Source: Coptis chinensis
Taxonomy: Eukaryota; Streptophyta; Magnoliopsida; Ranunculales; Ranunculaceae
Reading direction: 5' to 3'
Length of the DNA stretch: 64,000 bases
NCBI GenBank assembly: GCA_015680905.1
Contig: JADFTS010000068.1
Coordinates: 62,001 to 126,000, forward strand
The notes under the pieces are model-generated. The model made no database searches. It was not told the origin of the DNA and saw only the letters and a program-made list of their open reading frames with translations. A program made the position numbers and the translations under genes. Below, piece by piece: positions 8,868-64,000 of the stretch (its first letter is position 1; every line of letters begins with the position of its first letter).

Positions 8868-8903
<36 letters not shown>

Positions 8904-10336
8904 AATATGGTCAATCCAAGTTGACTTTTCTATTGTATGTACTTGAAAAGAGATCCTAATTTCCCCATCTAGTGGGGAAAAATTCTAATTGGCTCATCTA
9001 GATGGGGGTAATACTAGTTAACCCAACAACTTATTGAGTCTTAGTTGAAGAGAAACTGTGAATTATGATCATATTATCTATGGTCATTAGATCTTTATTC
9101 AAGAGTGGAATTCAATTAAAGATGGAAACTAACCTAGAATCTCTAATAATTACATAAACAATAAAAAAATGAGAGAAATGATCAATGCTTTTATTTTTAA
9201 TCTTACTTCTTATTTATTAATTTATTTTAGGAAAATATTGACGGGCCTATAGTGATTCTTCTACCGCCATTAATTGATTCTGATTTATTTCCATTTTGTT
9301 TTCTTTCTTTCTTAAATGCCTTTTGTTATTTTCACTTAATTTCTTAAACATTATTGAAGTAATATTGCTATACTAAAGTCTACACCCAAAACGTTATAGA
9401 TGCCAACTCTCGATGACATGCTCTCCATGATCCCCAATTTCATCTTTTAGCTTCTACTTAAAACACTTTTAGGTAATTTATATATTTTTTTTTTCCGTTA
9501 CTCACCACATTCGCATATCACCATTTCACCTCTTCCCTAAGCAAATTGAGTTGATTGCAAGTTAAGTCATGTTCCATTAGACAACATATATTCGTTAGAG
9601 AAAAAAAACTGTAACTTACGTACCATCTAGTGTTCCAAAAGAGATGAATTAATAAATAAAGGAATTTAGGGGAGTTTTGAGGGGACATATAGTTATTATA
9701 CAATTTCAATCAATTTTAATAAAACATTCAAATATGTTGAGACTTGAGAGCACCTTAGCTTGAAAGAAAAAGAACAAATTGAATATGAGAATAGAGTAAA
9801 TTTTTACAATTGGACTATGGAACAAGTTATTGATAGTAAATTGCACAAGAGGCGGCGTTACCTTTTTCATCTCATTGATTGATTAGAACGAATTTGTGGA
9901 CAAGCTTGTCCACAAACATCAATTTTTCATTGGTCCAATCAATTTTTAGGCAGAAAAACACACTTTTCGGGGCAGCTAAATAGTTTTTTCAGGAAGCAAA
10001 ACCACCAATCAGCACTTGATGTTTTTGTGGACAACAAACAGTTGCCTTTCCACAAATTTGTTCGGTTGATTGATTGACAAATGTGTATTTGATTCATTAA
10101 TAATAGAATAGTGGTAGACAATTTTTTTAGTTTATTTATTTTATTTGATTAAAAAAATATCATAATCAACATTATTTCAGCATCACCTAAATTGATAATA
10201 ATATCTCAAATGAAAAATAATAAAAACATACAAAATATCTTAACCTCGATCAATACGCCCCAAGTAACGTATCACTCTCACGTCTCAACAAGAAATTAAA
10301 TAAAGTGGTCACCAAAGCAAGATTAGCCGTAAGTAA
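8863..10336 (+). repeat. 1.5-kb tandem duplication, copy A
   Basis: Begins at a CT tract and CA microsatellite (about 8863-8899) and ends at AGATTAGCCGTAAGTAA. The same sequence in the same order occurs at 10463-11978. The first 150 bp (to about 9030) form a separate dispersed repeat with a third copy, inverted, near 30588-30805. A conserved 60-codon minus-strand open frame at 9939-10121 is identical in copy B, but it resembles no family I know and its identity may reflect recency only. Confidence 0.9.
9893..9916. repeat. Perfect 24-bp palindrome in copy A
   Basis: TTTGTGGACAAG is followed directly by its own reverse complement. The matching site in copy B (about 11549-11572) has one mismatch. 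A further imperfect inverted match (AATTTGTGGA) lies near 10050, so the segment from about 9873 to 10080 could be a small hairpin element. Confidence 0.7.
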
Positions 10337-10462
10337 AAAAAATTAGCGAGATGACATATTTTGTTTTTCTTTGACATGTTTCATAGTAAAACAATGACCT
10401 AATAAACAACTTAGGGTTAGTTAGTGATGCCCCCTAGATTAGCCAATTAGGATTCTCTCTCT

Positions 10463-11978
10463 CTCTCTCTCCCCCACACACACACACACAAAACCTGGTC
10501 AATCCAAGTTGACTTTTTTTTTTTGTGTGTCTTGAAGTAGATCCTAATTTCCCATCTAGTGGGGAAAATCCTAATTAGCTCATCTAGTTGGGCGTATCTT
10601 AGTTAACCCAACAACTTATTGAGTCTTAGTTGAAAGAGAACTGTGAATTATGATCATTTTATGTATGGTCATTAGATATTTATTCAAGAGTGAAATTCAA
10701 TTAAAGATGGAAACTAACCCTAGAATCTCTAATAATTACATAAACAATAAAAAAAAAAAAAAGAGAAAATGATCAATGCTTTTACTTTTAATCTTACTTC
10801 TTATTTATTAATTTATTTTAGGAAAATATTGACGGGCCTATAGTGATTCTTCTACCGCCATTAATTGATTCTGATTTATTTCTATTTTGTTTTCTTTCTT
10901 TCTTAAATGCCTTTTGTTATTTTTCACTTAATCTCTTAAACATTATTGAAGTAATATTGCTATACTAAAGTCTACACCCAAAACGATATAGATGCCAACT
11001 CTCGATGACATGCTCTCCATGATCCCCAATTTCATCTTTTAGCTTCTACTTAAAGACACTTTTAGGTAATTTATATTTTTTTTCCGTACTCACCACATTC
11101 ACATATCACCATTTCACCTCTTCCCTAAGCAAATTGAGTTGATTGCAAGTTAAGTCATGTTCCATTAGACAACATATATTCGTTAGAGAAAAAGAACTGT
11201 AACTTACGTACCATCTAGTGTTCCAAAAGAGATGAATAAAGGAATAAAAAGGAATTTAGGAGTTTTGAGGGGACATATAGTTATTATACAATTTCAATCA
11301 ATTTTAATAAAACATTCAAATATGTTGAGACTTGAGAGCATCTTAGCTTGAAAGAAAAATAACAAATCGAATATGAGAATAGAGTAAATTTTTACAATTG
11401 GACTATGGAACAAGTGATTGATAGTAAATTGCACAAGAGGTAATATGAGAATAGAGTAAATTTTTACAATTGGACTATGGAACAAGTGATTGATAGTAAA
11501 TTGCACAAGAGGTGGCGTTACCTTTTTCATCTCATTGATTGATTAGAACGAATTTGTGGACAAGCTTGTCTACAAACATCAATTTTTAGGCAGAAAAACA
11601 CACTTTTCGGGGCAGCTAAATAGTTTTTTCAGGAAGCAAAACCACCAATCAGCACTTGATGTTTTTGTGGACAACAAACAGTTGCCTTTCCACAAATTTG
11701 TTCGGTTGATTGATTGACAAATGTGTATTTGATTCATTAATAATAGAATAGTGGTAGACAATTTTTTTAGTTTATTTATTTTATTTGATTAAAAAAAATG
11801 TCATAATCAACATTATTTCAGCATCACCTAAATTGATAACAATATCTCAAATGAAAAATAATAAAAACACACAAAATATCTTAACCTCGATCAATACGCC
11901 CCAAGTAACGTATCACTCTCACGTCTCAACAAGAAATTAAATAAAGTGGTCACCAAAGCAAGATTAGCCGTAAGTAAG
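10463..11978 (+). repeat. 1.5-kb tandem duplication, copy B
   Basis: Direct repeat of 8863-10336, offset about 1.6 kb, with small differences only. Compared with copy A it has one extra 72-bp internal unit (11370-11513) and lacks about 20 bp between two ATCAATTTTT repeats near 11580, a typical short-repeat deletion. It ends about 400 bp before the ATG of the EEP gene and so borders, or forms part of, its promoter. Confidence 0.9.
11370..11513 (+). repeat. 72-bp tandem duplication inside copy B
   Basis: The unit starting AATATGAGAATAGAG occurs twice in a row (11370 and 11442). Copy A has it once, so this arose after the 1.5-kb duplication. Confidence 0.85.
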
Positions 11979-28149: not shown

Positions 28150-28559
28150 ACTATTTCTAATGAAGTCTCCAAATGTTGGGAGTTATCCACATTTTGATTT
28201 CCTCAAAATGCCAAATGGACTCACCATCATTTGATACTATCTTTGTCATAATAAGTCTAGAAGTCAAGAATTCTCATAGTAGCCTTCTCATAGTTTCTGG
28301 CTACTTGACTGGAAAACCGTTTGAGTACTCTTCCACCAAGTCTAATCCTCATTTCTCTCTTTTCTTATTCCTACGCACGTTCCCTCCTTTATATTTCTTT
28401 ACTATATTCAAAAGCAAGAAAACATCATCCTCTTTTTCAAAAGCTTCCCCCCTTCTCTTTCCTTTTCATAATACCAAGCACCCTCTCCATGCTTTCTCAC
28501 TACCTCTTCACACTTCACTCCTTGTTAAGTTGTTTCAGCTTTCATGCTGTGTCTTTCTG
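28150..28559 (+). promoter_or_regulatory. Captured promoter and leader of the receptor-kinase fragment
   Basis: A CT-rich leader (TTCTCTCTTTTCTTATTC near 28352) follows a TTTATATTTC TATA-like site near 28390 and runs into the ATG at 28560 in an open frame. Assigned by context only. Confidence 0.35.
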
Positions 28560-29040
28560 ATGGGGAAAGCTTTGTTTCAGCCAGTTTTTCCAGTTATACT
28601 AACACTTCTTTTCATGCTGCTATCTCCTTATGATGTTGTTGCTATTGAACCAAGTGCTAGAACTGATGGGGAGGCTTTAATACTGTTTAAAAAGATGATT
28701 CAAAGAGATCCCAGTGGAGTTTTGTCAACATGGGAGCTAAAGAATGATCCCTGCACTTGGAATGGGGTTTCTTGTAATCTTGGAAGAGTAACACAGCTTG
28801 ATCTTAGCAACTCCAATCTCGCTGGTACTATTACTTTCCATCCATTTACATCACTTGACTCACTATCAGTACTTAAACTATCCTCGAACTCATTTACTTT
28901 AAATTCATCATCTTCATTGTTACAACTTCCATTTGGAATTGAACAGCTTGATCTATCTTTCACAAGAATGGCTGGTACGATTCCAAGTAGTTTTTTCTCC
29001 AAGTACTCAAATCTTGTTTACGTCAATCAGAGTTCTCCTG
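28560..29040 (+). pseudogene. BRI1-like (BRL2/VH1-type) receptor kinase, captured 5' fragment
   Basis: The frame from the ATG at 28560 gives a signal peptide (MGKALFQPVFPVILTLLFML), then an LRR N-terminal cap with LSTWELKNDPCTWNGVSC and two or three leucine-rich repeats (RVTQLDLSNSNLAGTI, LSVLKLSSNSFTLNSS, IEQLDLSFTRMAGTIP). Similarity stops after SNLVYVN at about 29015-29040; another 25 unrelated residues run to a stop at 29123. The real protein is about 1,100 residues with many LRRs, an island domain, a membrane helix and a kinase, none of which is here. Upstream (about 28150-28559) the sequence looks like a native promoter and CT-rich leader, so promoter, leader and N-terminus appear to have been taken together. 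It lies inside the proposed Helitron, opposite to the RepHel strand. If expressed it could yield only a small secreted LRR peptide. Confidence 0.75.
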
Positions 29041-29939
29041 GTTCATGTCTACAATGTCTAGATTGTCAATCCGGTAAGAAGCTACAGTATGTCTGTTGTA
29101 CTACTATATCTTCTCATAGATAAACAAAAATTATCTTTTTTAGAGTTACTAATAAAAATTAGTGGATTTCAAACGCCTCAAATTCAAGGGTATAAATTTC
29201 AAGAAATTAGCAATCATTCAATCTAGGGGTTCGATCAATCCACATAATTTGAGGCGTGTTTTTTCTGACATCAGTAAGAGAGTTCGATCAATCCACATAA
29301 TTTGTCGGTTGAAGGCTTGGAGAAATCAACAACAATTGGGAAAATAATTGGGGGTGCAAAAAAAAGCAAATAAAAAAGAAAACAAGTCGTGCATCTGAAA
29401 ATTATGTGTTGACGTGAACATACACAAACCTTCATATTATAATCTAACGTAAGACTTAGATTTCAGCATCTCCTCTTCATATTCAACGTGGTTTTTCTTT
29501 GTAAGTTTGAAACTTTCATGAACAAAAGATACACACATTTTTTGCAGTTTTTAAGTCTTGATTGAAAACTACTAATCCAAAAGATAATTGGTCTTCCACT
29601 GATGTACATGTGGGTTTATTTAATTTCATAACATTTCTAGATCAATCATCACATGTGTTTCCAAACAGCTTGATATGGAAGTGGGAAAAAAACAGCTTGA
29701 AAAAAACAGATTAAATATCGTACAAACCTCAACAAATCACTGATAACCACGTCCAAACAGCTTGATATAGAAGTGGGAAAAAAATCGTCTTGAATTGAAA
29801 AATAGTGTGGAAAAAGGGGTACATTGCGAAAATGGGAAGATGTTTTAGCATTTCTTTTGAAGCAAAGTAGTGCTAAAGATCACAGAACATCATATAATAT
29901 ACAAATGAACAACTAAATCTGGTGTATCTCAGATCTAAA

Positions 29940-31929: not shown

Positions 31930-34900
31930 ATTTTTTTTTTCTCTTCCACGTTTAGGGCGCACTCCGCGGGAATAAAGCGACTTTGCGGCATTCCAGTGTT
32001 TTAGGCGCGACTCCAAGGCCAGAGTAAGCCCCGACTGGCCGGCATTCCAGTGTTTTAGGCGCACTGCATCGTCAGAGTAAGCGCACTGCGCTAAGTCTCT
32101 TTTTTTCGTGGGCCTCACTACAAGAATCAAAATTTGTTTTGGTATAAAAAACAAAATCAAGGTTTTGGAAAACCTAACTTTTCCAAAACAAAAAAGAAAA
32201 GAGATTATAAGAGAGCAATTCTTTGTGAGTTGAGTGTTCATTCTTTGTGAGTGAATTGAGAGACTTATGTCTGCTATCTCGACATCTAGTAAAGCTTGGA
32301 ACTCGCGGTGTGGGACGTAGGCAAATTGCCGAACCACGATATATCCTTGTCTTGTGGTTGGTTCTCTTTTGCATTAATTGTTTTACTTTATATGTTTGTT
32401 ATTTGATATTGAGAAATGTTGGGATATTGCTTGGAGGGTGTTGAAGTCTTGTCTATTGAGAATGATCGATCCTTGTGTTGGATTGATCCGTTTGTTGTGG
32501 GTAACGTTGTTTCCGCACTCATAAACTCACAACAATTGGTATTAGAGCATAAGTATACGACCTAGGATTTTGAGTTTAGTGCTCGAAATTTGTGTAGACA
32601 AGGTGTTCGATTAAATTCCGAGGTGAAACTGTTTTTTTTTTTGGGTTATTGTGTGTAACTTGAAAGATGGCTCCTAAGATGTCAAACGCAAGGTTTGAAG
32701 TAGAGAAGTTTAATGGGAAGAATAACTTTGGGATTTGGCAAGTCCAAGCAAAGGACATCCTCATCCAACAAAGGTTTGCCTGAAGGCTTTAAAGGGGATT
32801 AAATCTAAAGTGAAAGTATGAGTAATGATGATTGGGAAGAGTTCGATCTTGGGGCTTGTTCATCAATCCGGTTATGTCTTGCTAATGAGGTCATGTATAG
32901 TGTGATGGGAGAAAATACCACCAATCGGTATTTGGCTCAAACTAGAGTCTATGTATATGACCAAGAGCATGACGAACAAAATGTACCTTAAGAAGCGTCT
33001 TTATCGGTACATGATGGTGATGGATGGTTCAACGATGCAAAAGCACGCGTGAGTTCCGTCGGCGTCTAGCGGATTATTTGAATGTTGGTATGAAGATGGA
33101 TGATGAGGATCAAAGCGGCATGTTTAATATTCTCCTTGCCGAAAGCTATGAGCATCTAATGACTACATTTATGAATAGATAAGGCGTCGATCTTGACGAA
33201 GTTCGAGTGTACTTCTTTCTTATGAGTTAATGAAGAAGACACGCGTAGAGAATAACATTGATGCGAGGTCGGGGGCTAGTGGCAAGAGGAAGGTCGTATG
33301 AAAAGGCTTCTACAAGCAATGAGAAGTCTAGGTCCAAGTCAAAGAAGCCTTTGACACATGTGAAGTTGCTACAATTCGCGATGAAAAGGGACATTACGCA
33401 AGTAATTGTCCCCACCAAGAAAAGAGAACAAGAGATATGGTAAGAAGAAAGGTAAGCCAAAAAATTGAGGCAAGTTATGCTTCTCCCGGCGGGGATGAGT
33501 TGAGTCTCCGTGTGTTCACACAAGACTATATGGCGAAAGGTGGATTCTTGATTCGATGTTCCTACCATATGTGTCCGAATAGAAAGTGGTTTACTTCTTA
33601 TGAGAGCATTAATGGTGGTTCCGTTTTGATGGGTAATGACGTTGCTTTGTAAGATCGGTAGGAATTGGGCGATATCTGAGGTTAAGATGCATGATGGTAT
33701 AGTGAGGACTTTAACTGATGTGAGGCATGTTCCTGAGCTAAAGAAAAATCTTATTTCTCTTGGTACCTTGGATTCCAAAGGCCACAAGTTTGTGGGCGAA
33801 GGTGGAGTCCTAAAGATTGTCAGTGGTTCTTTAACAGTTATGAAGGGTCAAAGACACGAAACCTTGTATACTTTGATGGGTAGTACAGTGATAGGCGATT
33901 TAGCAGTGGGTGCATGTAGTGATAATTCTGAATGCACTAAGATGTGGCATATGCGACTAGGGCATATGAGTGAAAAGGGTTTGTCCGAGTTGTGCAAGCG
34001 GTGGTTCTTGAAAGACTTGAAGAAGCCAAGTATGGGTTTCGTGAGCATTAAGGCCTATGGGAAGCGGTGTAGAGTCAAGTTCAAGTCAAGCAAGCACACG
34101 ACCACATGCATCCTTGACTATGTGCATCACGGATGTTTGGGGACCCTCTAGAGTGGCTTCAAAAGGAGGTAAATCCGCTATTATGTCTCATTCATTGATG
34201 ATCATACCCGCTATGTGTGGGTGTATATGATGAAAACAAAAGATGAAATGTTTGAGACATTTAAGAAGTGGAAGGCAAGGGTTGAGAATCGCGTCTGCGA
34301 TAGGAAGGTAAAGACACTACGGTCCGACAATGATGGTACGTAATATACCTATGAGACCTTCCAAGAGTTTTGTCGCGAACATGGAATTGCCGGACAACGA
34401 CAATCGAGGGGGCACGCCCAATGAGAATGGAATGGCGAGAGGATGAATAGAACCTTGCTTGAAAGAGCGAGATGTTTGTTGTCTAATGCCGTCCCCAGGC
34501 AAAGAGTATTGGGCGGAATCTCCATGTCCATGGCGTGTTACCAGTATAATAGGTCACCGCCCAAATTATAGATTGCAAGACACCTTATGAGGTGTGGTCG
34601 TAACCCCACCGTGATTATAGTATTTTTGGCGAAGAGTGTTTGGATCGACCGCTACTACCATGTGAGGGAGAGCAAGCTAGATCCTAGAACTAAGAAAGCC
34701 ATATTCTTAGGGCTTCGCAAAATGGGGTAAAGAGATACTGATTGTGGTGTCTAGAAGACCACAAGTTCCCCGGGTCGCCAGAGATGTTACGTTTGATGAG
34801 ACTTCCGTATTATCTTCGAGTTTGCGGAAAAGAGTCGGCGAATGGTGAGTCTATAGAAGTTCAAGCCACCGAGCTTGAGTTGTCGATGCGCCAGATGACC

Positions 34901-43000: not shown

Positions 43001-44238
43001 GGACCCGGCCGGGGGTTTGAGGTCAAAGGCAAAGGAGCACCTAGTATGCAAGCCGATAAAGAGCTTGTATGGGTTGAAAGCAAGCACCGGTGACGATGGT
43101 ACATAAAGTTTGATTCCTTTATGGCGAAAGCAAGGATACAAGAAGTCCGCTTCCGATCATTGTGTGTTTGTTCGGAGATTTCCGGATGGGGATTTCATTG
43201 TGCTATTCTTTGTATGTGGATGATATGTTGATAGTTGGCCCAAACATCAACAAGATATCCAAGCTGAAGAAAGACTTGAGTAAGTCCTTTGAGATGAAGG
43301 ATTTGGGTCAAGCAAAGCGGAGATACTTGGGATCGCGGATCACTCGTGACGAAAGAGTGGGAAGTTGTGGCTTTCTCGAAAGCTACATTGAAGGTGTTGA
43401 AGAGATTCAACATGGATCAAAGCGAAACCCGGTCGGTTATCCGCTTGGTGGCCAGTTCCGCATGACCAAAGAGATGTGTCCTAAGGGGTGAGCATGAGCA
43501 GAGTCGGATGGAAAAGATTCCTTATGCATCCAGCTGGGCGGTTGATGTATGCCATGGTGTGTACTAGGCCGGATATTGCTTTTCGCCGTTGGGGTTGTAA
43601 AGCAGATTTACATCAAATCGGGTAAAGAGCATTGGGAAGGTGTTAAGTGGATATTGAGATATCTCAAAGGCACTTCCAAATCATGTTTGTGCTTTGGTGG
43701 AAGTAAGCCCTTACTTGAAGAAGGCTACACCGATGCGCATATGGCGGGTGATGTTGACTTCGATGAAGTCCACCTCCGGTTATCCGGTTTACTTTTGCGG
43801 GGGAGCGGTTTCTTGGCAATCTAAGTTGCAAAAGTGTGTTGCCCTCTCCACTACTGAAGCCGAGTATATTGCAGCCACCGAAAGGTTGCAAAGAGTTGCT
43901 ATGGATGAAAAGGTTCTTCGACGAACTAGGGCTAAAGCGTAAAACAGTTTTGTAGTTCTATGTGACGGTCGGAGGCGCCATCCACTTGAGCAAGAATCCG
44001 AAGTTTTCATTCTAGATCCAAGCACATACACGTCGCGTTATCATTGGATTAGAGAAGTACTTCGAGGACAAGCATTTGTGTATCGAGAAGATCCATACCG
44101 ACAAGAACGGGTCGGATATGATGACCAAAGTCTTACCGAAAGGTAAGTTTGATGTTTGTTGTGCTATTGCGGAATGGCGACACTCCTCTGATTTGGCAAT
44201 TGCATGGAGGTATCCCCCTCACCGCTCGGGAGGGAGAT

Positions 44239-45309: not shown

Positions 45310-48300
45310 ATCCAGTTCGGAGACCTTCCCAACAACATCTAATCTCACTCTCGATCACCCCTGCAAAACAAATACAACACGTTAATGCCTTCGAGTTTAC
45401 ATTAGTTTAGTAAATATGGTCGATTGGTGAGAAAATATATCCTAGAAGATAAATGTAATTACCCCGAGAAGGCGGAGGAGCCATTGGAACCTTAGAAGAA
45501 GAAGGCTGTTTGAAAAAGAATTCAAGCAATAAATTCAATAATGAAATACTAAGATTTTGAAAATACTAATATTAAATAAGTATATACATAGTTCAGGATA
45601 TAACCTTCCAAATATAACTACTCAATATGCAGTACCTACCTTGTGATTGAGGTTTAGGCCATGTACACGTAGTCTTCGTGATGGCCCGTTTCACCGCAAT
45701 TTCCACACCTGGCGATTCGAGATCTTCCTTTCCTTTTATCAAATTCTCCGTAGCAACAAAACCACACGCACCTATATTAGAACAAAAAATTGAGAATTAT
45801 ATTGAGCTTTGGAAACCAAAATTGAGCAAATGGCGCATACCTACCACTCGTAAAATGTATCTCCTCTTCTTCTTCGCTCAAATCGGCTGATTGAGCACAT
45901 TTCCTCACACGTTTTGAGTTTGTACTTGGACCTATTACATACACATAGCATTGTAGTTATTAAAAAAAATAGAAGTACTAGCAACGCAACATGTTTAAAA
46001 ATTATAGTTCTTCAATAATATAGATACTTGTATTGGAAAAACTAAAGCGGTGAACATAACTAGTTACCCCCAATTTCTCGATGTAATTCTGGGCACGTGG
46101 GTTTTGTATGCCCAACAACACCACATTCACCACAACTTTTCTTCCTTGTCTCATTGTGTCCTTTAAGTCTTTTTGGTCGACCTTTAGGTGCTACCTGGGG
46201 TGGATCACGTATGAGTTCTAAGTGGGCCGCATCTCTGTGAGTATCTGATGGCTCCTCAACGGGAACTTGAGGATTTTCTTCAGCAGTTGATGGGATCTCT
46301 TTTGACATAAGATAAGAATGTAGGAAATCTTTGAACTCTTCACTAGCTTCTTTAGTTTTGGAGGCCTTCAAACAAATATTCTTGCAAATCCCCATAAGCT
46401 CACTATAACAAATAGCAGAAGTTGCTTCATTATGAACATTAACTGAAGTAACAGTAGGAATGACTGTTTTCACATGTCGCGTCCACCTCAATAAAATGCA
46501 ACTAGAGGGTATTTCAGCGACATCTTCATTTTTAAGACGGAAATTATGTGTCGGCATGGAAAACCAAATGACTCAAATAGACCACAAGAACACTTGGCTT
46601 TTTTATCAACAACATTGTATTCCACAATAGACTTGCAGTGCCTATACAAATGACGATGCAAAGTGTAGTAACGAATATTGTCACCTTGATGATCCGTTAT
46701 TGAATCAACAATGTACAATGCCTCTTGCTGCAATTGCATCTTAAACACATTAAAAGCCGCCCGTGTATAGATGGAGTTCGCCTGATTTTCATACTCAGTC
46801 AGGTGGGTCACAATTACCGGCTTGGTTGTCAGAGTAATAACTTCTTCTTCGTGCTCACGGTGCCGGATCTTCTCAAGTGCTAGCTCCATTTTTCCATAGA
46901 GCTCAACCATTTTTAAACCAGGCTTTACATGAAGCCGTATAACAGAGTTCATGCTTTCACAACGTTGGTTGGTTCTACAACCACAAAAGAATGCGCCTCG
47001 AAGATATGCCTCTGCCCACCTCATCCTCTTTTTGTATATCTTCTTCACCCACTCATGGTCATGGACCTGGTGTGCTCATTCTAACAAATGTTCCCACATT
47101 TGGTCAAACTCTTCTTCTGAACATTTCATAAACATGAGTGAACAAAAGTCCCTTTGAAACCCAGAGACACGGACATTGTCAATACAATTTTTCAGAACGT
47201 GCCAAGCACATAAGCGATGTCTAGCACTAGGTAAGGTAGCTTTAATAGCCTTGCGAATTGCATGATCACCATCTGTTATGACCGACTTAGGTGCCTTACC
47301 ATCGCCGAAGAAAACGCTCTAACGCCCAAATGTAAAAACGCTTTCGACTCACTAGTCATAACGCAAAAACCAAATACAATAGTTTGTCTATGATTGTTCA
47401 CTCCAGCAAATACGACAATTGGCATTTTGTATTGATTTGTCCGGTATGTTGAATCAAACAATAACACATCACCAAAACAGCTGTAATCTGCACGAGACGC
47501 CGAATCGCCTGAACAATCGACCAATTGGCTAAGTTCATTCAAATTTCAGATGAGTAGTAAAATTCTGGATCAATCTTCGACTTGTTTTTCATGCAGGAAA
47601 CAAGTGTGCTAGCATCTCCATTCATATAATAAATTTTCCTCATCCTGGTCATATAATTATACAAATCCTTTCTTATGTAACCAACTTTACAAAACTGGCC
47701 AGCCCTATAAACAAGAAAATCCATCACTTGACATTGTCTAATGCCCACATCAATTAGACTCTTTGCCAAAGTTGCATCTTCACTGCCCATCTTTCTATGT
47801 GAGCGACCAAATATCGAACTAGGATAAGGCACAAGTGGATGAGTGTGTTCAGCAACAAACTTATTAACAACCCACATATTGCATTTAATATCAAAAATCA
47901 CTTCAAAAATCGCAAGACACTTGCATCTAGATAACTCACGTTGTTTTCTTTTGTGTTCCATATTCAAATATTTCACCTCTCTCTCACCTTGGCATGAGCA
48001 CACAAAATTTCTTTTAACCGGGATATCTTTATGAAATCGGTAAACACCTTTGCGTACACTAAACCCAACAACCTTGGCATACTTTCGTTGTAGAACTCAA
48101 ATGCCTCGTTCTTTGGTTTTAAAACGCATTGAAAACATGATTGCATTTTCATCTAGATCTTCCCCCCCAACTTACCACCTAATAGATCGAAATCATTCTC
48201 ATTAGTTTGTTCACTTCTTGCATCCGCTTCATTTGATGTCCTTCAAAACCTTCAATTTCACTAACACTATGGTCATCCATCGATTCATCTTCGCCTTCCA

Positions 48301-52224: not shown

Positions 52225-52524
52225 CTGGTGGTTATCGGTGCTCTGCCCACACCATTAGAAAAAGGTAATACTGAGCTGACTATAGACGCTTGCCTGTCCT
52301 TACGTGACTTATCTCCCTCACCACTACTTTGATTTGAATTTAGAGACTGATACTTAACTATACATATATGGACCGCTCCTTTATCCTTTAAAGCATTCTC
52401 TCGCTCACTTCTCTCTTCCTTTTTATGAGAAAAACACACTGTTTGAAAACAGTAGAGGTTCATTCTTTGTTTTTGTGAAGCTGGTGCTTAATCATGAGCA
52501 TTTTATGGCATTGGTGATTTGATT

Positions 52525-53276
52525 CCCCGTCACAAACTTCACACTTCTCTCACCTTATAATACATATACCTTCAATCCACACTACACCATAACAGGCTAT
52601 TTGCAACGACAAAAAGCCGTTGTGAATAATTTTCGCAACGCTTTTTAAACATTGTAAATAGGGCGTGGGTAAAGTGTTGGAAATTTTTGAACGGTTAAAA
52701 AGCGTTGCAAACAAAATTTTCCAACGGTTACTAACCGTTGCAGAGTGACTATTATTAACGGTTAAAAAACATTGCGTAGTTTGATTTGTAACGATTATTG
52801 ATGATGCTTTAATATTTATTTTTTGCTTTGCAACGGTTTACAATCGTTACTAATGTATTGATATAGTTAAAAAATTTATTTTAATTTTTTTCATGCCCTA
52901 AACCTGCACCTCCTGGTTTCATATAGATGCAAATAAAATTACCAATACTTTTTCACACCATTTGACAAGTAAAATAAACACAAGCAAACACATGAAAAAA
53001 ATATTATATTCATTGAATCATATATATAACTTCAAAAGAGTTTTGAGGGTTACAAATTCAGATTTACTAAGAGTTACAAATTTCTATACGATTTTTCAAG
53101 CAATTCCGAATCTTCAAAATGCAATAACAAGCATTAGTGACGATGTCTTCACTCAATATAAATCCTAGTACCGCTCCACAAAGCCCATCTAATTCCAAAA
53201 AAATCACAAAACAAATAATGAACTCAGAAAAACAATCATACTAATTAAATTCATGCAATTAATTAAATACTTGACA
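52525..53276 (+). repeat. CACTA-type terminal segment, tandem copy 1
   Basis: Contains CACTACACCATAACAGGC at 52584, a CACTA-family terminal inverted repeat start, followed by many subterminal copies in both orientations of AACGGTTAAAAAGCGTTGC or its parts. No transposase seen. No matching opposite end was found to the right. Confidence 0.7.
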
Positions 53277-54027
53277 CCCCGTCACAAACTTCATACTTCT
53301 CTCACCTTATAATACATATACCTTCAATACACTACACCATAACAGGCTATTTGAAACGGCAAAAAGCCGTTGCGAATAATTTTCGCAACGCTTTTTAAAC
53401 ATTGTAAATAGGGCGTGGGTAAAGTGTTAGAAATTTTTGAACGGTTAAAAAGCGTTGCAAACAAAATTTTCCAACGGTTATTAACCGTTGCAAAGTGACT
53501 ATTATTAACGGTTAAAAAGCGTTGCGTAGTTTGATTTGTAACGATTATTGATGATGCTTTAATATTTATTTTTTGCTTTGCAACGGTTTACAACCGTTAC
53601 TAATGTATTGATATAGTTAAAAATTTTATTTTAATTTTTTTCATGCCCTAAACCTGCACCTCCTGGTTTCATATAGATGCAAATAAAATTACCTAAATAC
53701 TTTTTCACACCATTTGACAAGTAAAATAAACACAAGCAAACACATGAAAAAAATATTATATTCATTTAATCATATATATAACTTCAAAAGAGTTTTGAGG
53801 GTTACAAATTAAGATTTACTAAGAGTTACAAATTTCTATACGATTTTCCAAGCAATTCCGAATCTTCAAAATGCAATAACAAGCATTAGTGACGATGTCT
53901 TCACTAAATATAAATCCTAGTGCCGCTCCACAAAGCCCATCTAATTCCAAAAAAAATCACAAAACAAATAATGAACTCAGAAAAACAATCATACTAATTA
54001 AATTCATGCAATTAATTAAATACCCCC
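53277..54027 (+). repeat. CACTA-type terminal segment, tandem copy 2
   Basis: Direct repeat of 52525-53276 with a 752-bp offset and few differences. Includes the second CACTACACCATAACAGGC at 53332. The pair must have arisen by recent tandem duplication. Confidence 0.8.
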
Positions 54028-56172: not shown

Positions 56173-56488
56173 ATTTTCGCACCCCCATTTTTTTTTCCAT
56201 AATTTCTATTATTGCACCCTTAGCTTATATGATCAATTATGAGTTGCATATGCTCCTGCTCCTAGTATTAATGCGTTGAAACAATCGTGTATATTAAATT
56301 TGTATATTTTGAGTTGCATATGCTCCTGCTCCTAGTATTAATGCGTTGAAACAATCGTGTATATTAAATTTGTATATTACACGATTGTTTCAACGCATTA
56401 ATACTAGGAGCAGGAGCATATGCAACTCATAATTGATCATATAAGGGTGCAATAATAGAAATTATGAAAAAAAAAAAATGGGGGTGCA
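56173..56488. repeat. Foldback element (long inverted repeat)
   Basis: Left arm about 56173-56303 and right arm about 56376-56488 are reverse complements. They run from GCACCCCCATTTTTTTT through GCATATGCTCCTGCTCC to ACAATCGTGTA. The left arm's inner 70 bp is duplicated once more (56306-56375), so the hairpin carries an extra unit. No coding. Such MITE-like hairpins can feed small-RNA production if transcribed. It ends 121 bp before the CACTA element. Confidence 0.88.
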
Positions 56489-56608
56489 AATCCTTATTAT
56501 AGTTTTGACATTTTCTAGCTAATTACTTATACTGAAGTAGAGTTTCTATCAAATCTCTGGGGGTTCATGTATTCTAGATCAGTCTGCAATCATGTGATGA
56601 TCTACTAA

Positions 56609-56640
56609 CACTACCAAAAGAACGACTTTACCCGACTGAC
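56609..56640 (+). repeat. Left terminal inverted repeat of the Pack-CACTA
   Basis: CACTACCAAAAGAACGAC followed by TTTACCCGACTGAC. Pairs with 63411-63442. Confidence 0.92.
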
Positions 56641-57016
56641 TATGGCTGTCGCGAAAGGTATTACCCGACAGACCAAAACCGCCGCAAGACCGTCGGAAAA
56701 TGCTCGGTCGGCATAGGCTTCTGACGGTTTTTATTGGTCAAAACAGGCCGTCGGGGTTGAGGACCTTTGCCGACGGACATTCCTACTGTTAATATCCGTC
56801 GGATATGCCGGCTGTCAAAAACCGTCGGATAGTTGCTGCTGTTAAGAACCGTTGGATAGTTCTGCTGTTATGAACCGTCGGTTAGACCAGCTGTCACCAG
56901 CCGTCGGATATGCCAACTGCTAGCCGTCGGGTAGTTTGCTACTAGACAGTTTTTATCCGTCGGGTATTAGTTCTTTATTTAAAAATATATTTTTTATAAT
57001 AATTGTTTCAGGTACA

Positions 57017-58794
57017 AGGACTGAATGCGCGTCATGACAGATTTTTCGTGCTCCCACTGCTCGGTTAGAGCCTTCTGCTTTTCCTTTAAGAGAGAGAGCT
57101 CTGCCTCAAGGCGACTCAGCCTATCTTTCGATGCTCTGTCTATGTCGTTCATCAAAGAAAGCCTCTCCATCTCCTGCTTCAGTACAGATCGGTTGATCTC
57201 ATCCAAGGCAGTTGGTTTTGAAGTAATTTCCATTTTCAATTTTGCAGCTGCCTCATCAACTAGATCAATAGCTGGAAGAAACATGTTCACATTAGCATTG
57301 GTAGCTTCAACCACTATGAAAACCATTCAATCGAAGCTGAGTGCTCTGTGATATAGAACTTCTGATTACCTTTGTCTGGAAGAAAGCGGCCACTGATGTA
57401 CCGATCTGAAAGAATTGCAGCTGCTACAAGTGCACTATCTGATATTCGGACTCCATGATGCAACTCATACCTTTCACGCAATCCGCGTAGTATAGAAATT
57501 GTATCTTCCACTGACGGTTGATCAACATAAACTTGTTGGAAACGACGCTCTAAGGCAGGATCTTTTTCAATATATTTACGGTATTCATCGAGTGTTGTAG
57601 CACCAATACATCGCAACTCACCACGACCAAGCATAGGCTTCAAAAGATTACCAGCGCCCATCGCACCATTTGTGGCACCTAAGATATTAATACCAAAATA
57701 TCAATAATATCTAGTTCTAAATTACAAACTCAATCTGAAGATAACTGATAATAGAGTGAACTAGCCAAGCCATATAAAATGATATGGATGGAGATAAGAA
57801 TAAAGTCAAGTGAGTCTATGTTTGTTTTTATCGGTATAAGAATCTCTGACAAGTCTTCATTGATCAGTTTATACAAAAACATAATGCATTCACCTTTGCG
57901 AAGCTTGAAAGGAAAAAGTAAAAGAATAAGTTGATAGACTTATCCAACAAAGAAGATTTAATATTAAAGAAGATCAACGGACTACTACACCAAATTCAAG
58001 CAGTATACTGGAATCACTTTTGAAATCTATAAATCTCATGAACTTCCGTAAGGTATCTGAAACTACGGGGTGAAAAAATGATGGATTCTTCAATTTTTTA
58101 GAGTAAAATATTGTACCCATATCAGGTTGAATTACATTAAGCAGAATCCAACGAAATGAACTACATACTCAACAACTATTTACGTAAAACATCTGAAAAA
58201 CATTGCTAGTAAGTCGTAACCCAATCAAAGTGTTTTTACCTGCCCCTACAACAGTGTGGATCTCATCAATAAAAAGAACAATTTGTCCTTCTGAATCAGT
58301 CACTTCCTTCAGGACAGCTTTCAACCTGTCCTCAAATTCTCCACGATATTTCGCACCAGCAATAAGCGCACCCATATCAAGGGATATCAACTGGTAATAA
58401 AAGGTCTATTAGACCAAGTATGATAAAATCAAAAGGCAAAAATCATCATTATCGAGGGACCTAAAAAATTATGAGACAAATCTAATTATCAACAGAAACA
58501 GAAAACATAGGTACATTATCGAATGTTATTTAAAAAATTACATTTATTAATAAAGACAAGCATGTGGTCGTACTTAAACTTTACTATCATATTCTTACGG
58601 CTCAAATGACTTCTATTAATCTGACAATGGACGACAAGATATACATGAAAGCTGCAATTTGTATGGTTGCACCTCTATAAAAAGGCCATAAGAAATTTTA
58701 AGATATAAACTTCGGTAGGACCCTTGTTTAAATGCCTACCTTGCGATTCATCAAAGCTTGAGGGACATCTCCTTGCACAATTATCTGGGCAAGC
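57017..58794 (-). pseudogene. ClpB (chloroplast ClpB3-like) chaperone, four captured exons
   Basis: Minus-strand exons with GT-AG borders: 58740-58794 (AQIIVQGDVPQALMNRK), 58240-58390 ([20 protein letters not shown] and the Walker B stretch [14 protein letters not shown]), 57370-57678 ([20 protein letters not shown], then [20 protein letters not shown] with the arginine finger region) and about 57017-57271 (DLVDEAAAKLKMEITSKP and the start of the coiled middle domain, to SVMTRIQS). ClpB/Hsp100 proteins are ATP-driven disaggregases of about 900-970 residues. Only part of the first ATPase domain and the beginning of the middle domain are here; the Walker A, N-domain and second ATPase domain are missing. 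Wording such as [20 protein letters not shown] suits the plastid ClpB3 type. All four exons are open, so capture is recent. The last exon ends at the element's left subterminal repeats. Confidence 0.88.
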
Positions 58795-58899
58795 CTGGAA
58801 ATTTACACATGAAACAGACGAATGAAAGAGAGGAAGAATATCAGTTTATTGGTAAAGAAGATTGTAAAGGAAAAAATATATATAAACCAACGGAAGCCT

Positions 58900-60187
58900 G
58901 CCTCCCAGAGTAAACACCATCTCCTGGGCCCTTTGTTACAGGAAGGGACTCCCCTGTTAGAGAAGACTGAAAATTCAAAAGGAGAACAGATCAGAATTTT
59001 AAGAGGGTGGAGGGGTATTCTCGATTGCATAATGAGTTTTAAAAAGGGACGGTCATTAGATAGTAGAGTCACCTGGTCAATTTTTAACGGGTCTCCCTCG
59101 AGGAGACGAGCATCGGCTGGTACTATGTCTCCAAGTTTTATACTGATGACATCTCCAGTAACAAGAACTGCTGCATCTTCTTCGTTCCACTTTCCATCTC
59201 GAAGTACCTATTTTAGTTTCATGAACCCATAACAATTTTAGATACCACATGGAAATGAAACAAATTCGAAAAACGTCACTCAACTTATTATTTTTACTCT
59301 TCACTTAGAATATCACTGACTTACTACTATCAAGCCTAAAATATCATTATTTTCACCTAAATGACCCCATCACTCAAATTCTAGTTTATTCTTTATCTAA
59401 ACCCAACACTCAATTTCTCATCATTAGGCATAATACTGAAAACTATACCAACTCCAAACAACTAAAGTCGGCTTCCAAAAGCAGATTTCGGCTTGAAAAA
59501 AGCCTTTTTAAAACCAATGGTGTTCATAACTTCTTTAAAATAGATTCTAAACAACAGCTATAATTATCAGATGCAGCTTAAAATTAAAACAGATCAGTGA
59601 AGAAAACAACTAAATGCAAACAGAAAACCTGTATAAGCAAAATCTGTTCAATCTAGTACCTTAGCCTTAGGGGCTAGACGCGCCATAAGAGCTGCAGCAG
59701 CATTTCCGGCATTATTTTCCTCAATGAAGCTAATCGTTGAGTTAATAACAGGTAGAGTAATAATCCCCACAAAATCCTGCCAGTCAGGAGGCTTTCCCAG
59801 CAACACAATTCTTAAAAATCAGAACAAAATCACATAAAACAAACAAACAACTTCATAAAACACATAATTTAAGCTCACCCCTCCATTTGCTAGTGCTATA
59901 GCCATAATTGCAGCTGCTTCCATGACCCAAGACAAAGGGTTCCACATGAAGCCTAAGAACTTCAAAAACTTACTTTCCTATAAATACATAGAAATGAAAG
60001 AAAGATCAAATTTTGAAGCAAAATGAATAAAACAAACGGCATGTAGAAGAGTGTCAATGAAACAAACCTTCTTTTCCTCTAACTTGTTATGACCAAAAAT
60101 GACTAATCTCTCTTCAGCACTAGCACTTGTTAAACCATCTTTACTACATCTCAAATTCTCAAATACTTCTTCAATGGGTATGTTTTC
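58900..60187 (-). pseudogene. Plasma-membrane H+-ATPase exons 1-5, captured copy 1
   Basis: Exons 60068-60187 ([19 protein letters not shown], 40 codons), 59879-59977 ([20 protein letters not shown] plus a membrane helix, 33 codons), 59660-59797 ([14 protein letters not shown], then [20 protein letters not shown], 46 codons), 59073-59207 ([35 protein letters not shown], 45 codons) and 58900-58966 ([20 protein letters not shown]). These cover the cytosolic N-terminus, first membrane hairpin and most of the actuator domain with its TGES dephosphorylation loop. The P-type proton pump energises the plasma membrane; the full protein is about 950 residues. The first codons, the later membrane part and the regulatory tail are absent. 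The acceptor before exon 3 reads TGCTG where copy 2 has TGCAG, so exon 3 of this copy may be skipped. After GVYSG the sequence no longer matches the family. Codons are otherwise open. Confidence 0.9.
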
Positions 60188-60403
60188 CTGCACTCAAAAC
60201 ATCACAAAACTCATCAAAAAACCAAAAAAATGTACTTTACATGAAAAAGAAGAGATAAACAAGTACCAAATCCACAACTTCCTTTAACACAGCTTCAAGA
60301 AAATCTGAACAAAAGAATATCATGTAGATCTATCAGGTTTATATTCCAGAACGTATGTCAGGTTAGAAAAAGAACAAACCACCAGCAGTATTATCCGTCT
60401 AAC

Positions 60404-60523
60404 CTCAATAAGATTTCTGTCTACTGAGAGCTTGTTCAGGGTCAAAGTTCCAGTTTTATCACTGCAAAGCACATCCATGCCTGCCATTTCCTCTATTGCT
60501 ATCATTCTCTTCGTGATGGCTCC
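60404..60523 (-). pseudogene. H+-ATPase phosphorylation-site exon, captured separately
   Basis: One 40-codon exon: [20 protein letters not shown] then [20 protein letters not shown]. It has the invariant DKTGT whose Asp is phosphorylated in P-type ATPases, flanked by GT and AG splice sites. In an intact gene it lies downstream of exons 4-5; here it lies upstream of exon 1 of copy 1, so gene order has been shuffled. Confidence 0.9.
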
Positions 60524-60796
60524 CTACATTAGTTAAATTCCAAAGGCATCACTGTTATCAAATTTTGTAAACCACACAAAATCGAAATTAAAAAACCTGG
60601 AAAAGTACTCTGACAAACCTGACAAACCTGTTGAGCTAGGTGATGGGAACCAATTCAGAGGTGAAGTTCCCACTATAAACGCATTACACAATGAGATTTA
60701 GTGTGCAACTTAAAGATGTAACCAAGGGATGCACATACACGGTACACACAACAAAGAGTAACAAACCAGACATTTCACAAAAATATTTCATCTTAC

Positions 60797-60889
60797 ATTT
60801 TTCTTTAAAGTCTTGGCAGGCTGTTCATCCTCGTCCTCATCAGATGAATCATCCTCAGAACTGCTACTGTCCTTGGTGACTTCGCTAGG
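60797..60889 (-). pseudogene. Acidic Ser/Asp/Glu exon, nucleolin-like
   Basis: A 31-codon stretch, PSEVTKDSSSSEDDSSDEDE then DEQPAKTLKKN, between an AG acceptor and a GTAAG donor. Acidic serine tracts ending PAK-x-x-KK are typical of plant nucleolin N-termini and of some HD2-type histone deacetylases. Low complexity makes the exact parent uncertain. The exon structure shows that it comes from a host gene. Confidence 0.55.
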
Positions 60890-61144
60890 CTGCCAGAAAG
60901 GAGAATGAATACAACAGTCAACCCATATGTCATCTAAACCCACCAAAACAAGTTTTATACCAAAGTAATGAATACATCAATGGGAAGTGAGACCTAAGAG
61001 GCGAAGACTCTAGAACGATGTTGGAGGAAATTACATAGTAAACTAACTAACAATTGACAAAATATAGTGACAACGATATTCAGAAGGTCCACTCCTTACT
61101 GGCAATGAAAATAATCAGCACAACAGACGCTCCAAATTTCAGAA

Positions 61145-62165
61145 GGTTCACTTTTGCTTTGAGGCAGTAGTGTGTACTCCCCAGCAACAGAACCCAGCAT
61201 TACAACCCGGTCAATCTAGATTGTTACTTTCCCGAATGAGCTCTGTCATTGGATTAAAAAAAAAGCCAGTTTCAGTTTCTGATAATAGTGAAGCTTAATA
61301 AAGCTGTCAGAATCTATTTCTTTTGTCTTGTTTTCTTAATTGATGATTAATTGATTATGCTGTCAGAATCACTTTCCCAAATTTGCTCTTGTTCTTACAG
61401 GTAATGTGAAGTTTTTGACTTTTTGGAGGACTATCTAGTGCCCATGCAAAGCCCTCGTCCCACTCAGGAGTAGGACCAGTCGAAACAACCTGAAAAGTGA
61501 AAACAAACAGTGTGTTCTATAAATGTTACATGTACTGGAAGCATATAAAGGTCATGAAAATGGAAGGAGAAAGTAATTTCAAATTTGGATCTGGATCTGT
61601 AACAACTTTCAAAGCAGAGTGGCAAATGAAATGCAATGACGTTATGGAAGGAGTCAACAAAATCTAACTGACTTTTCATGCAACATGCATGATATATGAA
61701 TTAGCTAATATTCTTATATAGCACCTAAGCAGCAGCTACTTCAACATAATGCCGAATCACCGCAGGAGTCTAGCTTCCATATGAGGGAGACAGTAGAGGC
61801 TACGTACCCTTCATGGGCAATTGGGCATGTATTCAAAGAGTGAAAGTTGGATGCCACAGAAGAAAGGTGATGTGCAGCCACTTCCGGCGAATAAAGTTCC
61901 AAATTATGACCATGAAGTGAAGCAATGACCCACATAATTTTCAATGATTTTATTTATCTCCGAGGTTGTTTACCATTTCCTTTCAAGGGAGGGCAGGAGT
62001 TTAGCTCAGAAAAAATTACACTATTTTTACTTATTATTCTAAATATGAAAGCTCATGATAGAATTGAGGCAGCTCATGATAGAATTGAGTGAAGCACTTT
62101 TTCTTACCTGCATCTGCCTGGGCGGAGTATTTCCAAGTGTGATTTTGCAGTAGACACTAGCATTG
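61145..62165 (-). pseudogene. C2-domain exons, CELLULOSE SYNTHASE INTERACTIVE-like
   Basis: Three minus-strand pieces: 62108-62165 (NASVYCKITLGNTPPRQMQ, then donor GTAAG), about 61379-61489 ([36 protein letters not shown]) and about 61145-61253 (SSFGKVTI, stop, [20 protein letters not shown]). They resemble the C-terminal C2 domain of CSI1/POM2-type proteins, which link cellulose synthase complexes to microtubules; these are giant armadillo-repeat proteins over 2,000 residues long and only the C2 part is here. The second and third pieces would be one continuous exon in the parent, but about 120 bp lie between them, flanked by a repeat GCTGTCAGAATC. A stop lies in the third piece. A neighbouring C2-domain family remains possible. 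Confidence 0.75.
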
Positions 62166-62375
62166 CTGCATCAGCCACATTATTTGGTTCAGCTGGTACA
62201 AGAGAAAGGATCAAAATTCAAGATGAGTTCAACTCGGTTTCAGCTCAGCTGAGTGACTCATTAGTCAAGTTTCACCCAGGCCTGAATTAGCGAGCAAGTT
62301 TCACCCAGATCAGTGAAGAAAACAACTAAATGCAAACAGAAAACCTGTATAAGCAAAATCTGTTCAATCTAGTAC

Positions 62376-62899
62376 CTTAGCCTTAGGGGCTAGACGCGCC
62401 ATAAGAGCTGCAGCGGCATTTCCGACATTATTTTCCTCAATGAAGCTAATCGTTGAGTTAATAACAAGTAGAGTAATAATCCCCACAAAATCCTGCCAGT
62501 CAGGAGGCTTTCCCTGCAACACAATTCTTAAAAATCAGAACAAAATCACATAAAACAAACAAACAACTTCATAAAACACATAATTTAAGCTCACCCCTCC
62601 ATTTGCTAGTGCTATAGCCATAATTGCAGCTGCTTCCATGACCCAAGACAAAGGGTTCCACATGAAGCCTAAGAACTTCAAAAACTTACTTTCCTATAAA
62701 CACATAGAAATGAAATAAAGATCAAATTTTGAAGCAAAATGAATAAAACAAATGGCATATAGAAGAGTGTCAATGAAACAAACCTTCTTTTCCTCTAACT
62801 TGTTATGACCAAAAATGACTAATCTCTCTTCAGCACCAGCACTTGTTAAACCATCTTTACTACATCTCAAATTCTCAAATACTTCTTCAATGGGTATGT
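62376..62899 (-). pseudogene. Plasma-membrane H+-ATPase exons 1-3, captured copy 2
   Basis: Exons 62784-62899 (from [12 protein letters not shown], missing the first two codons and the acceptor), 62595-62693 and 62376-62513. Nearly identical to copy 1, introns included: the shared block is about 62306-62899 versus about 59592-60180, and I count about nine differences. Copy 2 keeps the normal TGCAG acceptor before exon 3 and TLLVINS where copy 1 has TLPVINS, but has NNVGNA where copy 1 keeps NNAGNA. So each copy has decayed separately after an internal duplication of the element. The block's outer side breaks at about 62899 into the element's own right subterminal region. Confidence 0.9.
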
Positions 62900-63410
62900 A
62901 GTGAAGGAAAGTGAATATTTTTTAAGGATTAAACATGCAAAAACTAGAAAACGAAATCAGAATGGCGTCGGTTCATAATTACCTGTTCAGGTTGAGAAGG
63001 GCGTCGGTGCAATGAAATTCAAGGGCGTCGGTGCAATGAAATTCAAGGAAAAGCTATTGCAGAAGGAAGGAAAAGCTGAAAACTCGGCAGTTTTAGAGTC
63101 GGTTTTATTATTTTAATTATAGGGGTTTAATTTTTCATGAAATTTTAGAGCGTGGGAAGTGAAATCTTTGCCGCCTGATAATTGAATAGATATGCCGACG
63201 GTTAAGAAGTACGGCCATATTTTGGTGTCTGTTGGAAACAAACAATGGTTAAATCCAGTCGAACTAGCCGATAGCTAAAAACTCTCGGGCAACTGTCGGA
63301 CAGAACTAAACAATTGGAATACCTCTAGGACGGATGGCCAACTAATACCCGACGGATAAAAGGCGTTGGTAACTTCCTATGGTTATAAACCGTCGGGTAA
63401 TTTTTCTGAA
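62900..63410 (-). other. Right subterminal region of the Pack-CACTA
   Basis: Holds a 24-bp direct duplication starting GGGCGTCGGTGCAATG (about 63000 and 63024) and CCGTCGGGTA-type subterminal repeats near 63185-63400. In this family such repeats bind the TNPA-type protein. Any transcript of the captured exons would probably start here, since they all read leftward. Confidence 0.6.
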
Positions 63411-63442
63411 GTCTGTCGGGTAAAGTCGTTTTTTTGGTAGTG
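63411..63442 (-). repeat. Right terminal inverted repeat of the Pack-CACTA
   Basis: GTCGGGTAAAGTCG ending TTTTTTTGGTAGTG, reverse complement of the left end with one or two changes. Followed by TAA. Confidence 0.92.
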
Positions 63443-64000
63443 TAAGTTAATCTACTAGCAAGTAGCAACTACATATGAGGATGTGGAGACTGACCATCCC
63501 TGAGTTAGTTGTTATCTAAAGAGAAGTTAAAGATCCAACATCTCACAACTGTGTTTTTGTGCGTGTATCAGCCAGGCTGGTTGGTTAATTAACCAGATAC
63601 AGTCATACAGATAAGAGGCAAACTATTTCTTCAAGAAGCAAGTATTAAAATTACCTGGAATGAGGAGATCAGCTAGTATTCAGTCAAGTTCTGTAATGAT
63701 GTATGCTCCTGCTTTTTAACACTGTAAAAGTAAGAGACAATATTCAAATACAAATATACAACTAAAACTTCCTAACAAATAAAGCTAAGCTAACTAGCAG
63801 TGAAGGCAGCATAGATACATACATAATCAGCAGAGCGAAGGAGAAATGAAGTTCTAGGCTTATTAAACGAACGTGTAAAATTCTTTCCTATCAGTCAAAC
63901 AGTCCTTAGTTCTTTTCACTTACAACATTCTTTTCACTTGCAACATTCTTTTCAATAGCCTGTCTCACAAATCACAATAAATTTTAATAAATTAGATCCA
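63443..64000. other. Flank of the Pack-CACTA, no gene recognised
   Basis: AT-rich; no exon or element recognised up to the window edge. Confidence 0.4.

Follow-up and report, generated by a model that had tools for sequence, protein, structure and literature searches.

A 64-kb window of Coptis chinensis DNA (contig JADFTS010000068.1; the window is the whole stretch of 64,000 nucleotides that was analysed) contains, at positions 56609-63442, a structurally complete, non-autonomous CACTA element that carries pieces of several host genes. A preliminary description had placed a Pack-CACTA at exactly these coordinates, and the terminal inverted repeats (TIRs) at 56609-56636 and 63415-63442 bear them out. 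The parts of the element, with the target site duplications (TSDs) that flank it, are listed from left to right.

56606-56608, no strand: left TSD, TAA, read directly
56609-56636, plus strand: left TIR, 28 bp, from a pattern search and self-alignment
56637-57010, plus strand: left subterminal repeat region with nine copies of CCGTCGG, some of them within tandem units of about 26 bp
57011-58794, minus strand: ClpB fragment with exons 58794-58740, 58390-58240, 57678-57370 and 57271-57011, separated by three GT-AG introns
58905-60304, minus strand: H+-ATPase fragment A, six exons that extend from close to the N-terminus as far as the SSLTGES region, placed by the match to AHA2 and by splice sites
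60404-60654, minus strand: H+-ATPase fragment B, the end of one exon and the whole exon with the DKTGT site, placed by the match to AHA2
60797-60889, minus strand: acidic exon of 31 codons with AG and GT borders
61110-61242, minus strand: further coding-like piece containing an in-frame TAG
61370-62172, minus strand: C2-domain fragment with exons 62172-62108 and 61489-61370 and one GT-AG intron
62306-62899, minus strand: second copy of H+-ATPase exons 2 (partial) to 4, recognised as a duplicate of 59590-60183
62900-63414, plus strand: right terminal region, in which 24 bp are duplicated in tandem (62997-63048) and CCGTCGG has three copies
63415-63442, minus strand: right TIR, 28 bp, from a pattern search and self-alignment
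63443-63445, no strand: right TSD, TAA, read directly

Both TIRs claimed in the preliminary description are present. The element ends are CACTACCAAAA, and inverted TIRs starting with CACTA, as in the CACTA superfamily, stand at either end. The left TIR reads CACTACCAAAAGAACGACTTTACCCGAC and the right TIR, inverted, reads CACTACCAAAAAAACGACTTTACCCGAC; they differ at one position and are identical at 27 of 28. A search with the TIR pattern (one ambiguous position, up to three mismatches) gave two matches in the window and none in 100 shuffles, and there were no matches in viral contigs or in contigs of prokaryote genomes, as expected for plant DNA. The short motif CACTACNANAAA alone showed no enrichment in the window (10 matches compared to 7.75 expected, one mismatch allowed), so the weight is carried by the full TIR. 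The inverted repeat can be extended to 56609-56641 and 63410-63442 at 94%. On each side of the element lies TAA, a TSD of the 3-bp length found in the superfamily, just as had been reported.

Subterminal repeats, also anticipated in the preliminary description, were found at both ends, again as in the CACTA superfamily. CCGTCGG occurs 13 times in the window, and 12 of these copies are in the two ends of the element (nine in the left 402 bp, three at the right end); there are zero copies between the captured genes. All seven matches to the longer form CCGTCGGRTA in the window fall inside the element, compared to an expectation of 0.06. GTCGG or its complement was counted 12 times in the left 402 bp (mean 0.9 and largest 5 in 500 shuffles) and five times in the right 300 bp (mean 0.5 and largest 4). 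In addition, the two subterminal regions share a perfect 22-nt inverted repeat (56951-56972 and 63340-63361). The matched TIRs, the TAA flanks, the confinement of CCGTCGG to the ends and the 22-nt inversion together indicate that both ends belong to one family and to one insertion.

No match to a transposase family was obtained inside the element in six-frame Pfam scans at E up to 1 with stops read as X, in agreement with the earlier remark that none was visible. The TIRs, TSD and subterminal repeats, the lack of a match to transposase and the fragments of several host coding genes in one orientation (H+-ATPase, ClpB and C2) identify it with high confidence as a non-autonomous CACTA (En/Spm) element of the Pack-CACTA kind, the class originally proposed; that confidence attaches to the class and not to the route by which the cargo was captured.

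All of the recognised cargo is on the minus strand, so the single orientation noted in the preliminary description holds. Read along that strand, the order is the second H+-ATPase copy, the C2 exons with the further piece, the acidic exon, H+-ATPase fragment B, fragment A and ClpB. Fragment A matched Arabidopsis AHA2 (5ksd) with E 1.6e-97 and 151 of 187 residues identical, and its joined exons align to AHA2 free of gaps. Fragment B is short and Pfam returned no family for it; 44 of its 49 residues are identical to AHA2 chain 288-336. In the gene its sequence comes after that of fragment A, yet here it is positioned upstream of A. The second copy and the corresponding part of fragment A make up a 594-bp internal duplication (62306-62899 and 59590-60183) in which 585 of 594 positions are identical and the copies are 2,716 bp apart. 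Other than this duplication, no second copy of the cargo was detected in the window (blastn, E 1e-8).

The ClpB fragment matched ClpB 6dju with E 2.8e-103 and gave Pfam matches above the cut-off to AAA_lid_9 and AAA. The C2 exons matched Pfam C2 (E 1.2e-06, 29.2 bits against a cut-off of 22) and, weakly, the C2 domain of dysferlin (E 9e-4). Addition of the piece at 61110-61242 left the C2 score unchanged at 29.2 bits; this piece may belong to the C2 donor, which is presumably CSI-like. The best Pfam match of the acidic exon was sub-threshold (Treacle, E 0.37), and nucleolin-like is likewise a presumption. Three host donors are established, namely H+-ATPase, ClpB and a C2-domain protein, and the acidic exon is likely, though unproven, to represent a fourth. 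The preliminary count of at least four donors is upheld by search for these three, as are their names; the fourth, and the labels CSI-like and nucleolin-like, are not. The statement that the interior is almost entirely host exons and introns was a little strong. Exons and introns are indeed present, but the 18 listed exons total about 2.1 kb of the 6.8-kb element and parts of 60655-61369 and 62173-62303 are outside the assigned pieces. The GC3 of the captured exons was 0.38, a value that agrees with a dicot host but is no proof of one.

Twelve introns lie wholly within single donor blocks and 23 of the 24 border dinucleotides are GT or AG, indicating that genomic DNA was copied, not cDNA; capture of cDNA was rejected on this ground. 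Carriage of functional whole genes was rejected as well, the H+-ATPase, ClpB and C2 pieces all being partial. At the acceptor of the fourth exon of fragment A (59797), TG replaces the AG that is intact in the second copy. The two copies of the 594-bp block differ at nine positions, four of them in 351 coding bases, four in introns and one in the acceptor. Three of the coding differences are nonsynonymous and one is synonymous (pN 0.011, pS 0.014), a pattern expected for unconstrained sequence, although the number of changes is small. In two printed alignments each for H+-ATPase and ClpB, the element departs from residues common to both references; examples are the P of the VPGD motif, which is T here, and the D that follows 'GAM', which is G. 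As judged by the lost acceptor, the in-frame TAG and the three nonsynonymous changes to one synonymous change, the cargo is decaying, and the gene fragments are most likely non-functional baggage; if transcribed, they could possibly be spliced as cassette exons. The internal duplication, the lost acceptor and the TAG are additions to the preliminary description.

Since no transposase was found inside the element, an autonomous relative would be needed. Such a relative, located elsewhere, would supply a transposase that binds the TIRs and the CCGTCGG repeats, and movement would be by cut and paste, as the superfamily suggests. The interior would have been assembled in several steps, with host DNA copied in by template switching during faulty repair of breaks inside the element. 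The position of fragment B before fragment A, the presence of the block in two copies and a 14-bp direct repeat that overlaps the block border at 62306 fit repair of this kind, and we infer with moderate confidence that the interior arose in this way. Two further short repeats were found, one of 21 bp inside the intron of the C2 donor and one of 24 bp about 100 bp beyond the 594-bp block. The same element might instead have gained its interior when sister CACTA insertions lying close together fused and the intervening DNA was remobilised, a mechanism proposed for Pack-CACTA elements of Arabidopsis (PMC13317346, PMC8903248). Several rounds of fusion would be required for four donors, and the twice-present block is more simply explained by template switching. 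Neither a remnant TIR (up to three mismatches) nor CCGTCGG is present between the donors, yet the fusion model deletes the inner ends. None of these points is decisive, and fusion is a possible, if rather doubtful, origin of the interior. We regard as extremely improbable that the two ends come from different elements with ordinary host pseudogenes trapped between them, a circumstance that the preliminary description had named as one that would overturn it. The presence of a single copy of each end in the window favours this account; the TIRs identical at 27 of 28 positions, the matched TAA and the perfect 22-nt inverted subterminal repeat speak for one element, and several unrelated gene pieces lying adjacent in one orientation are no ordinary host locus.

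The presence of all recognised cargo on one strand could also suggest that a chimeric unit is transcribed and has its own function, by exon shuffling or by small-RNA control of H+-ATPase, with orientation under selection. Eight of the 18 listed exons are bordered by AG and GT and are a multiple of three bases long; strung together behind the partial exon 62897-62784, such exons are readable on paper for 306 codons. Captured exons of Tgm-Express1, a CACTA element of Glycine max, are spliced into host transcripts (PMC1947982). However, the genomic frame upstream of the first exon runs into stops within nine codons, one acceptor is lost, one TAG is present and there is no synonymous excess among the changes between the two copies. 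A common orientation is expected by chance in 1/8 of cases for four independent donors (1/32 for six independent blocks). In the precedents nothing was found on fragment orientation, and the word is absent from PMC1947982. A functional unit of this sort is very improbable in our view, and we give very little weight to the specific form in which a cassette transcribed in one direction would yield, through its symmetric exons, chimeric products of H+-ATPase and the acidic exon, or small RNAs tuning the parent H+-ATPase genes, with both order and orientation selected.

Several points weigh against a Pack-CACTA filled by template switching with cargo that is now decaying. Its mobility in trans is assumed, and fusion of sister insertions as a capture route has to be counted here as well. 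Neither the acidic exon nor the piece at 61110-61242 has a significant Pfam match. Neither the 21-bp nor the 24-bp repeat coincides with a block border, and short families of two copies often arise by chance, as the repeat tool cautions. In the gene, too, the exons of the second copy come before those of fragment B, and the apparent scramble of B and A may have a simpler history. Exon borders were set with GT and AG in view, which in part accounts for how regular they are. With just four differences in exons, weak selection could have gone unnoticed. The search for cargo copies covered the 64-kb window, and no parent gene, sibling element or empty site was seen there.

CACTA elements with captured gene pieces have been known in plants for about twenty years, and Catoni 2019 is said to be the original paper on Pack-CACTA in Arabidopsis. 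Within 5.7 kb, Tgm-Express1 contains pieces of five unrelated host genes, exons as well as introns, with GT-AG borders, and these pieces are spliced as cassette exons (PMC1947982). Like it, the present element is a dicot CACTA with exon and intron pieces of unrelated genes and GT-AG intron borders. The donor genes are different, however, and Tgm-Express1 sits in a known gene and is spliced, whereas the present element is known from sequence alone. In the Tpn1 family of Ipomoea nil, another CACTA family, 339 elements were identified that average 7,081 bp and have 28-bp TIRs, subterminal repetitive regions and, apart from one exception, 3-bp TSDs; the interior of non-autonomous members is replaced by captured host sequence (PMC5105172). 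The family is credited with 28 types and a wide range of captured gene fragments, as cited in PMC8195511. Its 28-bp TIRs, 3-bp TSDs, subterminal repeats and overall architecture are similar to those described here, the TIRs being likened by length and not by letters; the main text of PMC5105172 prints no TIR sequence that starts with CACTAC.

Pack-CACTA elements of Arabidopsis and maize share with the present element CACTA ends with a TSD, no transposase, and coding DNA that sometimes comes from more than one locus (PMC8903248). In maize they surpass the other Pack-TYPE elements in the number of distinct loci captured. The annotation used for these two species drops singletons, and the present element is known as one copy. 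CACTA-like elements of Chenopodium are also dicot elements with pieces of host genes, but there the pieces are few and short, next to a region that codes for the element's own transposase (PMC8978399). These precedents in dicots and maize indicate that four donors in a dicot would not be unusual, and the preliminary judgement that they were proved weak, given five donors in Tgm-Express1, host capture in Tpn1 and the 1/8 chance of a common orientation. A description of this very element was not found among the papers listed in searches of the open-licence literature, consistent with the earlier claim that none was known. To judge by their titles, the listed papers with the TIR core or CCGTCGG in their text deal with other subjects than plant CACTA ends, and for capture of H+-ATPase by CACTA the listing gave one durum wheat genome paper. 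The element itself appears to be undescribed but is of a kind already known, and it opens no new class; the preliminary description is confirmed on nearly every point and had the class right, and the element is ordinary for its kind. It provides a clean, readable example of exon shuffling by plant transposons, with several donors, a doubled block and markers of decay in one complete element, and, when the parent genes are known, its duplicated block might assist in dating some of the assembly.

The remainder of the window contains other repeats and gene remnants. About 120 bp to the left of the CACTA element is a foldback (inverted-repeat) element of about 315 bp (56176-56490) in which a 70-bp unit is present in about two repeats. 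A scan of 9.4 kb on the left side of the CACTA element (E up to 0.01) gave coding domains of a FAR1/MULE-type gene at 47.2-48.1 kb and no others; this MULE-type transposase gene or FAR1-like relative covers 46491-48096 on the minus strand in several frames, with FAR1, MULE and SWIM domains. The N-terminal part of a leucine-rich repeat (LRR) receptor-like gene, possibly BRI1-like, lies at 28164-29120 on the plus strand (LRRNT_2, E 1.2e-12). Pieces of Copia-type retrotransposons are found at 33630-34148 and 43114-43488 on the plus strand, with GAG pre-integrase and reverse transcriptase RVT_2 domains. Long direct duplications occur within 8884-11977 (alignments of 981 bp at 94% and 556 bp at 95%), and a head-to-tail duplication of about 750 bp with 97% identity occupies 52519-54023.

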